Both the position numbers and the translations under genes were made by a program. Below are positions 52,622 through 55,808 of a DNA stretch of 64,000 nucleotides, piece after piece (positions within the stretch are counted from its first letter, which is position 1; each line of letters starts with the position of its first letter). This DNA is from Bacterioplanes sp. (lineage in GTDB: Bacteria > Pseudomonadota > Gammaproteobacteria > Pseudomonadales > Oceanobacteraceae). The notes beneath the pieces are model-generated. The model was not told the DNA's origin, did not search any database, and saw only the letters and a program-made list of their open reading frames with translations. The stretch spans positions 62,001 through 126,000 of the forward strand of contig JACUUC010000001.1 of NCBI GenBank assembly GCA_014859445.1. Direction: 5' to 3'.

Positions 52622-52782
52622 CGTGTTTCACCTCACAGAGGGAGCTCGTTATACGGCATTTCAGCCAATTGGCAATGGCCTAATTGTGCATGATGACTGA
52701 TGAAAATGCTCGCTGAGTGTTTGCTCGATTAGCATTTAACGACTACAACTAGGATATCTAAAGCCAATCTAATGTATCCGCC

Positions 52783-53169
52783 ATGACCACACGCGTACTG
52801 ATTTGTGATGACTCGAGTTTTGCTAGGAAGCAGATGGCACGAGCATTACCCCCCGAATGGGAGGTCGAAGTATTTTTTGCCAATGATGGCTTGGAAGGGT
52901 TAGAAGTCATTCGCCAAGGCAACGGTGAAGTGGTGTTTTTAGACCTAACCATGCCCAATTTGGATGGCTATGGTGTACTCGAAACCATTCGCAAAGAAGA
53001 TTTACCGGCCATGGTTATCGTGGTCTCCGGTGACATTCAACCCGATGCACAAACGCGCGTTAAAAATATGGGGGCCATGGCGTTTATTAAAAAACCCATC
53101 GATGCGGAAAAAGCACGAGCCATTTTGACCGAATACGGCATCATGGCGGGAGGAGCGGATGATCACTGA
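52783..53169 (+). CDS. CheY-like single-domain response regulator
   Basis: Stand-alone receiver domain of 128 residues with no output domain. Acidic pair D9/D10 in VLICDDSS, phosphoacceptor D54 in VVFLDLTMPNLDG, Ser82 in VVSGD and Lys104 followed by Pro105 in FIKKP give a complete receiver. The tail (GGADDH) is short. Its last 11 bases overlap the CheC-like gene, so a partner phosphatase is made with it. No histidine kinase gene is adjacent. The input kinase is therefore unknown. Confidence 0.9.
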   Translation: MTTRVLICDDSSFARKQMARALPPEWEVEVFFANDGLEGLEVIRQGNGEVVFLDLTMPNLDGYGVLETIRKEDLPAMVIVVSGDIQPDAQTRVKNMGAMAFIKKPIDAEKARAILTEYGIMAGGADDH

Positions 53170-53773
53170 GCGCGTTTCACTCACCGAAGATCAGCGCGAC
53201 TGTTATCAGGAGATTGTCAACGTCGCGATGGGACAAGCTGCCGATCGTCTCGCACGATTGCTGGACGCCTATGTGGTGTTACCCATTCCGCAGGTAAATC
53301 TGATCGAAGCGAACGATTTGCACATGGCCATTCAAGGTGCCGAAGACAATCATGCCATTTCGTCGGTATGCCAAGGCTTCATTGGTTCAGGCATTGCGGG
53401 TGAAGCCTTATTGCTGTTCAACGACACCAGCTTTGAAGACTTAGCCACCCTAATGAACTATTCGGGTCCGCTGAATCGTTACGGTGAATTAGAACTGCTG
53501 ATGGACGTCAGTTCCGTATTGATTGGCGCCTGTATTCAAGGCATTGGCGATCAATTGGGTATCCATTTTAATCAAGGGCATCCGGTGGTCTTGGGACAAC
53601 ATTGCCAGGTGGCTGACATTGTCAAAAGTGGCAACCATCAATGGAATAAAACCCTAGCCATCGAGATCCATTACACCCTAGAGCATGTCAATATCGACTG
53701 CAATTTGCTATTGCTCTTCACCGAAGACTCCGTAGCCAAACTGAATAACAAAATCGACTACTTGCTGGATTAA
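53159..53773 (+). CDS. CheC-family phosphatase
   Basis: Predicted phosphatase of phosphorylated CheY-type receivers, 204 residues. The N-terminal active site fits the CheC/FliY/CheX consensus exactly: D14-x3-E18-x2-N21-x22-P44. The second CheC-type repeat is degenerate: the matching E-x2-N position in LMDVSSVL reads D-x2-S, so probably only one site is active. A GGGAGGAGCGG sequence precedes the ATG. It overlaps the receiver gene by 11 bases and is followed after 2 bases by the PAS-GGDEF gene; all three are co-translated. No motility genes are nearby, so the role may be outside flagellar chemotaxis. Confidence 0.85.
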   Translation: MITERVSLTEDQRDCYQEIVNVAMGQAADRLARLLDAYVVLPIPQVNLIEANDLHMAIQGAEDNHAISSVCQGFIGSGIAGEALLLFNDTSFEDLATLMNYSGPLNRYGELELLMDVSSVLIGACIQGIGDQLGIHFNQGHPVVLGQHCQVADIVKSGNHQWNKTLAIEIHYTLEHVNIDCNLLLLFTEDSVAKLNNKIDYLLD

Positions 53774-53775
53774 TT

Positions 53776-54744
53776 ATGACTGACACAGCGAAGGAATTGG
53801 GTGATTTACATTGGTTAATGGCCATCCTGCAAAATATTGATGTTGGCTTAGTCGTACTGGATCGCCAATACAAAATACAGCTGTGGAATGGTTTTATGGA
53901 AAACCACAGCGGCATCAGCCCTCAAAACGCGAAAGATCAATGCATTTTCGAATTGTTCGACGAGGTGCCACGAGAGTGGCTCATGCAAAAAATCGAACCT
54001 GTTTTTGAATTAAAGACGCGGGCATTTACCATTTGGGAACAACGTCCGTATATCTTTCGCTTCAAGAATTCACGTCCCATTACTGGCCGTGCCGCCATCA
54101 TGTACCAAAATTGCAGCATCATTCCTTTGGAATCCGTTGACCGTGTTGCCAATCATATTTGTATGATCATTTATGACGTCACCGATATCGCCATCCATCA
54201 AGAGGACGCTCGCTTAGCACAGCAAGTGGTCGCCGAACTGAGTGAATTCGATCATCTCACGGATTTGCACAGCCGCAGTCATTGGCAGCCCTTATTTGAG
54301 CGCGAATTTCAACGCTGCACACGCACACAGCGCCCCAGCTCGCTGGTGATTTTCAACATCGATCAATTTAACGATATTAACGAACGTTATGGCCACCATG
54401 CTGGCGATCAAGTGCTCAAAGTGGTGGCAGATTGCCTGCGCCAAACCATGCGCCAAACCGACAGTGCCTGTCGCTACAGCAGTGAGTATTTCGCTGTCTT
54501 GCTGGTTGAAAGTGATCAAGATACCGCCTTATTTTTTGCCGAGCGAGTGCGCAAACGCTTATCAAGCCTCACTATTCCAGTTACCGAAGCCGATTTAAAA
54601 ATCACCCTCAGCTGCGGCATTGCAACGATCAATGAACGTTTACAACACCCCTACGAGTGGGAGGCAGAAGCTGAGCAAGCGGTTAAACTAGCGCATGATC
54701 AAGGCGGTAACCGTTGTATGATCCGTCCGCCCAATGAACGCTGA
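53776..54744 (+). CDS. PAS-GGDEF protein with degenerate GGDEF and retained I-site
   Basis: Cytoplasmic two-domain protein of 322 residues. The N-terminal PAS domain (about 13-140, with NIDVGLVVLDRQYKIQLWN and SGISPQN) is followed by a GGDEF domain (about 160-320) starting FDHLTDLHSRSHW. The active-site signature reads S235-S-E-Y-F instead of GGDEF, so cyclase activity is unlikely. An RxxD motif (R226-Q-T-D229) lies exactly five residues before it, as in the c-di-GMP inhibitory site, so it may bind c-di-GMP as a receptor. It is the third gene of the receiver-CheC operon. Confidence 0.88.
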   Translation: MTDTAKELGDLHWLMAILQNIDVGLVVLDRQYKIQLWNGFMENHSGISPQNAKDQCIFELFDEVPREWLMQKIEPVFELKTRAFTIWEQRPYIFRFKNSRPITGRAAIMYQNCSIIPLESVDRVANHICMIIYDVTDIAIHQEDARLAQQVVAELSEFDHLTDLHSRSHWQPLFEREFQRCTRTQRPSSLVIFNIDQFNDINERYGHHAGDQVLKVVADCLRQTMRQTDSACRYSSEYFAVLLVESDQDTALFFAERVRKRLSSLTIPVTEADLKITLSCGIATINERLQHPYEWEAEAEQAVKLAHDQGGNRCMIRPPNER

Positions 54745-54806
54745 TCGCTTGCAATAATGGCCTGATGTGGGCAGACTTTACCACTCATTCATGAACTGAT
54801 TTGGCC

Positions 54807-55808
54807 ATGATCCCTCGCCCCTTTATCGATGCGCCACTGCGCGGTGTAACCGCTTTGGGAGTCGCTCTTGACGACATCAGTAGCGCATCCAATATTCCAC
54901 GCAGCCTTCTGCAAGACCCCAGCGCCGAACTCAATAATCGTCAATACACTCAGTTAATGTCCAGTTTGTGGCGACTCAGTAACGATGAATTAATGGGACT
55001 GGCTCCACAGCGTAGTCGTTTTGGCACCTTCAGCATGATGTGTAAAACCATCATCCATTGCGCCACATTGGAACACGCTCTGCATCGTGCTCGTCACTTT
55101 TATCAGCTTTTTCCGGGGATGCCGCGATTACACATTGATAAACAAAAGCATTTAACGCGTTTGGTGCTGACACACGACCTTCGTTATGACCCTGATCATT
55201 TTCTCAGCGAATCGCTGTTGGTTATTTGGCATCGACTTCCCAGCTGGCTGGTTGGCCAAGGAATCCCACTGATAGCCGTCGGTTGTTGTTATGAAGCACC
55301 AGAGCATGCCTCACTGTATCAACAGCTATTTGCGACACCCGTGAAGTTCAATGCCGATGCCACTTATTTGACGATACCCAGTAAAGTGCTACGGTTACCC
55401 ATTGCGCAAAACGAAGCCAGTTTGGCGCGATTTCTACAACAATCGCCCGCAGATTTATTAGGTCGCCCCAATCCACATCAAAGTGTGACGGGACGTCTAC
55501 GTAAACTGTTACGCCAGTATGAATTTAACCGATTACCATCACTGACTCAGGTGGCGCAACAGTTGCAACTGTCCAGCGCGACCCTACGTCGTCGTTTGCA
55601 AGATGAGCAAACGTCGTTTCAACGACTCAAAGACGAATGCCGCATGGAAGAAGCCTGCCGCTTGTTATCACGCCCAGACCACAGCATTCGCGATATTGCC
55701 GAGTATTTAGGCTATACCGAAGCCAGTACCTTTCATCGTGCCTTCAAAAAATGGGGCGACATCACGCCCAGCGTCTATCGCCAACAGCTTTTGCAAGAGA
55801 CTCCTTAG
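54807..55808 (+). CDS. AraC-family transcription regulator
   Basis: Regulator of 333 residues of the arabinose-binding-domain-like (OruR/ArgR-type) AraC subfamily. The N-terminal half shows LNNRQYTQLMSSLWRLSNDELMG (in part: YTQLMSSLWRL); the C-terminal HTH_18 domain has VAQQLQLSSATLRRRLQDE and IRDIAEYLGYTEASTFHRAFKKWGDITPS (in part: IAEYLGYTEASTFHRAFKKW). The ATG at 54807 is preferred over a TTG at 54801. It follows the PAS-GGDEF gene by 62 bases and converges with eda (4-base overlap). Its target is unknown; either neighbour is possible. Confidence 0.87.
   Translation: MIPRPFIDAPLRGVTALGVALDDISSASNIPRSLLQDPSAELNNRQYTQLMSSLWRLSNDELMGLAPQRSRFGTFSMMCKTIIHCATLEHALHRARHFYQLFPGMPRLHIDKQKHLTRLVLTHDLRYDPDHFLSESLLVIWHRLPSWLVGQGIPLIAVGCCYEAPEHASLYQQLFATPVKFNADATYLTIPSKVLRLPIAQNEASLARFLQQSPADLLGRPNPHQSVTGRLRKLLRQYEFNRLPSLTQVAQQLQLSSATLRRRLQDEQTSFQRLKDECRMEEACRLLSRPDHSIRDIAEYLGYTEASTFHRAFKKWGDITPSVYRQQLLQETP

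Follow-up and report, generated by a model that had tools for sequence, protein, structure and literature searches.

CheC-type proteins are known CheY-P phosphatases. The fold and the ExxN site of the CheC and FliY proteins of Thermotoga and Bacillus are found again in a protein encoded in the window, by which we mean the whole stretch of 64,000 nucleotides analysed here; this protein differs from them, however, in having only one intact site and no requirement for CheD, in standing beside CheZ and not in its place, and in being encoded outside che clusters. The dephosphorylation of CheY by CheX (3HZH, Borrelia) likewise involves a related fold and a CheY-type partner, but CheX is shorter and belongs to a different subfamily, and the Pfam CheX model matches the window protein below its cut-off. 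REC-CheC response regulators are a catalogued output-domain type, and P. syringae has a CheC-like response regulator (PMC2222644). The fused members of the family described here share this architecture, a receiver with a CheC enzymatic output, whereas the window has separate genes and, in addition, a constant third component with a PAS domain, which lies outside the catalogued type. As to the GGDEF domain of this third component, the homologous protein of another trio (L036) matches the PAS-GGDEF cyclase 3IGN of Marinobacter aquaeolei, while the window copy is without the catalytic residues. Like the degenerate receptors LapD and PelD, it has a dead GGDEF domain with an I-site; unlike them, it has no detected membrane domain or other output domain, and the I-site is lost in sister genera. 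No description of the trio or of its constant PAS partner was found in the literature searched, which mostly excluded subscription papers, so that an earlier description is possible. Two suggestions concerning V. cholerae were discarded: VC0377 is a CheX, a member of another family, and the identification of VCA1085/VCA1086 as a trio module was a guess that found no support.

The features of the locus are the following:

52721-52749, forward strand: TTGCTC-N17-TACAAC, a promoter-like element preceding the trio; the element is strongly conserved in the family, the window copy is diverged
52783-53169, forward strand: gene of a stand-alone CheY-like receiver, 128 aa (PF00072, E 2.5e-21)
53159-53773, forward strand: gene of a CheC-type phosphatase-like protein, 204 aa, with one intact active site (E18/N21); fold and profile matches, phosphatase role predicted
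53776-54201, forward strand: PAS domain of the third protein, aa 1-142 (Pfam PAS)
54202-54744, forward strand: signalling helix and degenerate GGDEF domain of the third protein, aa 143-322 (GGDEF E 1.1e-37; model pLDDT 87)
54451-54462, forward strand: predicted c-di-GMP I-site motif RQTD, aa 226-229 (among the 8 sequences of the window clade, R in 7 and D in all)
54478-54492, forward strand: degenerate active-site motif SSEYF instead of GGEEF, aa 235-239 (all 8 sequences of the window clade have lost the fourth residue)

The receiver gene and the CheC-like gene overlap by 11 bases (53159-53169), and a gap of 2 bases (53774-53775) separates the latter from the gene of the third protein (53776-54744), which reads as a PAS domain plus a degenerate GGDEF domain, with Pfam borders at about aa 1-142 for the former and aa 157-313 for the latter. 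These three reading frames, the overlap and the gap had been reported in a first-pass annotation and proved exact to the base on rechecking. Its account of the three proteins was also borne out. The receiver, which it called complete, has the acidic pair, the phospho-Asp, the Thr/Ser and the Lys of a CheY-like single-domain response regulator, and these residues (D9, D10, D54, S82 and K104) are invariant across the 122 orthologues compared. The CheC-like protein does have an active site, one ExxN site (E18, N21) being intact and the second degenerate. The third protein, said to keep an I-site without the GGDEF signature, carries RQTD, and SSEYF replaces GGEEF.

The middle protein falls below the Pfam cut-offs, that of CheX included, and has a weak match to an NCBIfam CheC model; at E 0.01, the Pfam CheC model matches 8 of 55 relatives and the CheX model 41 of 55. 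A profile built from the relatives nevertheless matches the solved CheC and FliY structures 1xkr, 2f9z, 4hyn and 3qta (E 1e-14 to 4e-9; for the first three, 1e-14 to 3e-13). In the same way, the AlphaFold model (pLDDT 85) is matched by Foldseek to CheC, FliY, CheX and FliM, the matches to CheC and FliY reaching E 2e-11 to 2e-9 at a probability of 1.00. Hence, we concluded that this protein is of the CheC type and is poorly captured by the Pfam models. Its first site is preserved almost without exception over the family, with E18 in 125 of 126 loci (the other has a gap) and N21 in 126/126, while the second reads D116..S119 in the window and, in the orthologues, mostly has D at its first position, followed by N or S at the second. 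A search of the window's own genome for CheX gave no match. CheD was found in 24 of the 39 genomes searched and not in the window's genome, which is thus one of many trio genomes without it.

The arrangement of the three genes recurs across the class, far beyond chance. In a sample of 275 genomes spread over the Gammaproteobacteria, a strong match to the PAS protein occurs in 37, and in 37/37 it lies on the same strand, 3-57 nt downstream of the CheC match; the CheC-like gene is present in 41 of the 56 genomes of the window's order. Trio loci were found in Thalassolituus, Oceanobacter, Oleispira, Bermanella, Hahella, Zooshikella, Oleiphilus, Catenovulum, Agarivorans, Rheinheimera, Aeromonas and Tolumonas, and records of large replicons add Vibrio, Salinivibrio and Pseudomonas and, outside the class, the betaproteobacterium Caballeronia. 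In 66 of 128 orthologous loci receiver and CheC form one polypeptide, the fused or separate state changing only twice on the tree. This fusion, together with the constant place of the PAS gene downstream of CheC, means that the trio is an old and real module; the trio is indeed kept together in related genomes, a point on which the first-pass annotation had staked its reading. Its statement that the genes are made together, as a co-expressed phospho-switch unit, is likewise supported by the near-perfect synteny and by the fusion in half of the loci. No family of flanking genes is shared as a partner across the lineages, in which the surroundings of the trio vary, so that the trio alone forms the unit.

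Upstream of the trio, a promoter-like element of the form TTGC-N-ACTATTACTTA is found in 24 family loci (in the range L079-L105), at a varying distance from the start codon. Exact copies of this motif number at most one per genome and were found in 7 of the ten genomes searched, which rules out the motif as the mark of a regulon. No convincing FliA or sigma-54 promoter was found upstream of the trio, the scores being only slightly above those of shuffled sequences; in the window genome the trio is neither visibly co-regulated with the flagellar genes nor located among them, as it lies on a separate contig and has no clear site of either kind.

The genome of the window does have a full flagellar-chemotaxis cluster, which lies on a different contig (C28) and includes CheA, CheZ, CheY, FlhA, FliM and FliG. 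The absence of kinase, flagellar or chemotaxis genes nearby, noted at first, is therefore true of the locus, but the trio is not remote from chemotaxis at the level of the genome. All 37 trio genomes of the class sample have CheZ, compared with 79 of the 238 others (Fisher p 2.7e-16), and 36 of the 37 have FliG, compared with 113 of the 238 (p 9e-10), both p values being uncorrected for phylogeny, genome size and lifestyle; CheA is present in 38/38 trio genomes tested. Within the window's order, FliG occurs in 40 of 41 genomes with the trio and in 9 of 15 without it (p 0.0009, uncorrected for phylogeny and lifestyle), and one relative in the window's family (G025) is without trio, FliG and CheZ alike. 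Two trio genomes, G052 and G087, are without FliG, and both still have cheY-cheZ-cheA. The contig of G052 carries flhF, flhG and fliA besides these three genes; it begins near flhA, so that FliG was probably lost to assembly. In G087 (C1 2582001-2622000; L176, L177) the trio is intact, cheY, cheZ and cheA are kept and cheB is split over two ORFs, and the 60 kb read contain no flagellar genes; its che genes are apparently a relic of lost flagella. That the trio occurs together with CheA, CheZ and the flagellum speaks for its involvement in the CheY-P pool, and we give a probability of about one half to the reading of the trio as a conserved module accessory to flagellar chemotaxis signalling. 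In many relatives, though not in the window's genome, weak second FliG_C matches are present in ORFs of some 635-670 aa. In the flagellar cluster on C28 (L160 5570-7954), HPt-like, receiver-output and STAS-like small genes stand together in an order resembling the HptB-HsbR-HsbA set.

On the sequences compared, what stays constant in the third protein is the PAS domain, not the GGDEF domain: all the invariant columns (alignments A3 and A7) fall within the PAS part, the nearest solved structure of which is 3mxq (E 4e-32). Most lineages have an intact GGDEF domain (GGEEF, GGDEF or GGEEY, with RxxD); forms of the third protein with the PAS domain alone are seen in Aeromonas, Tolumonas, Bermanella, Vibrio, Salinivibrio and Pseudomonas, and in the window's family the GGDEF domain is degenerate. 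The tree requires 8 changes in GGDEF presence or absence, or 10 over three states, and we infer that they run from intact to degenerate or absent, as the intact form is the widespread one. The ancestral arm was probably a working cyclase, since the GGDEF domain of L036, a protein from the same order, matches 3IGN along its full length (E 4e-83), and 3IGN is described as catalytically active and solved with c-di-GMP (Vorobiev 2012, as cited in PMC4215984 and PMC3838380). The window domain is still modelled close to 3ign (pLDDT 87, TMt 0.98). The fourth residue of the motif, which is E in 71/71 intact loci, is changed in 8/8 of the window clade, as are the Lys and the conserved Asp; in the window protein the first metal Asp is N194 and the Lys is N, so that it lacks the residues of an active diguanylate cyclase. 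In the window's family the mean identity is 0.36 for GGDEF against 0.74 for PAS (0.51 and 0.52 outside the family), which looks like relaxed constraint.

These data bear on the first proposal made for this locus, a phospho-switch read or set by c-di-GMP with the third protein as receptor, in the manner of the degenerate GGDEF domains of LapD and PelD. The I-site of the window protein is in the right register, five residues before SSEYF, and has the RxxD of such a receptor. Its conservation in the window clade, where R is kept in 7/8 and D in 8/8 despite the loss of catalysis, fits a c-di-GMP receptor, although these eight sequences are a small and related sample, and the intact members resemble a structure solved with the nucleotide; hence c-di-GMP binding by the window protein is possible. 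In sister genera of the same family, however, the I-site has decayed too (GDEQ, AQEN, SADN), the GGDEF domain has a low identity within the family, and in PAS-only trios such a receptor cannot be the core mechanism. The proposal, which we consider unlikely, is thus weakened for the core role and survives as a lineage-specific possibility. As most orthologues have an intact cyclase and many have no GGDEF but keep PAS, c-di-GMP appears to be an accessory arm; the retention of PAS in the latter suggests that its role is probably a direct contact with CheC or the receiver, c-di-GMP being a side output.

If the trio is an accessory module of chemotaxis, the receiver and the CheC phosphatase with its single active site would be one functional unit and the PAS protein their sensor or regulator partner. 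CheA would phosphorylate the receiver, and CheC would dephosphorylate the receiver and/or, beside CheZ, CheY-P, giving a self-resetting or gated phosphate drain; here two readings are open, as CheC may reset its own receiver or the receiver may gate the action of CheC on CheY-P. A ligand or redox state sensed by PAS would tune the pair by protein contact, and the whole would act on motility. In many lineages the intact diguanylate cyclase of the PAS protein would be a second output, and in the window organism, where the domain is catalytically dead and the I-site kept, it would at most bind c-di-GMP. With somewhat less confidence than the general reading, we tentatively propose a widespread gammaproteobacterial add-on in which a PAS sensor would govern a CheC phosphatase that is coupled to a receiver and drains CheY phosphate alongside CheZ, with an evolvable c-di-GMP arm ranging from an active cyclase through a dead I-site receptor to complete loss. 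If this is true, many flagellated Gammaproteobacteria, including members of Vibrio, Aeromonas and Pseudomonas, possess a second phosphatase of the CheY-P type, equipped with a sensor of its own, which is missing from models of their swimming, and the family offers a natural series in which a c-di-GMP enzyme either decays to a possible receptor or disappears, its sensor domain being retained in either case.

A co-occurring kinase had been suggested as something to look for, and no dedicated one is linked to the trio, none being conserved at its loci across lineages; CheA is the default candidate for the receiver. In some 12 relatives (L079 10659-13442 and about 11 others) the trio is followed first by an AraC-type regulator and then, at a distance of about 1 kb from the trio, by a 7TMR-DISM hybrid histidine kinase. 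The AraC gene is present in the window as well (54801-55808), and Entner-Doudoroff genes occupy the position of the kinase. For this kinase the window genome gives no clear orthologue (best match 28% identity), and most lineages lack it; it was therefore rejected as the cognate kinase. Some 2 kb upstream of the trio, L031 (636-2567) has a hybrid kinase with three receiver stretches, which is also seen in L118. Such neighbours, the lack of flagellar genes beside any trio locus examined and the intact trio of G087 without FliG speak for a self-contained two-component unit outside motility, in which an unlinked orphan or hybrid kinase would phosphorylate the receiver, CheC would reset it and the output would be c-di-GMP or some other target. 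This is improbable in our view, as the downstream kinase is missing from most lineages and the strict co-occurrence with CheZ would stay unexplained. A CheC without catalysis, serving at the flagellar C-ring or the chemoreceptors as an adaptor of the FliM or CheC kind, would agree with the match to the FliM middle domain and with the degenerate second site, but it is very unlikely given that E18/N21 is essentially invariant over 126 loci, as catalysis expects, and that many trio genomes, the window's included, have no CheD.

Finally, some relatives have a second, diverged trio (L043 3504-6380; L046 4721-7906, seen whole in L046), a paralogous module whose third protein, of 712-741 aa, has PAS and GGDEF domains and, in L043, an EAL domain as well.
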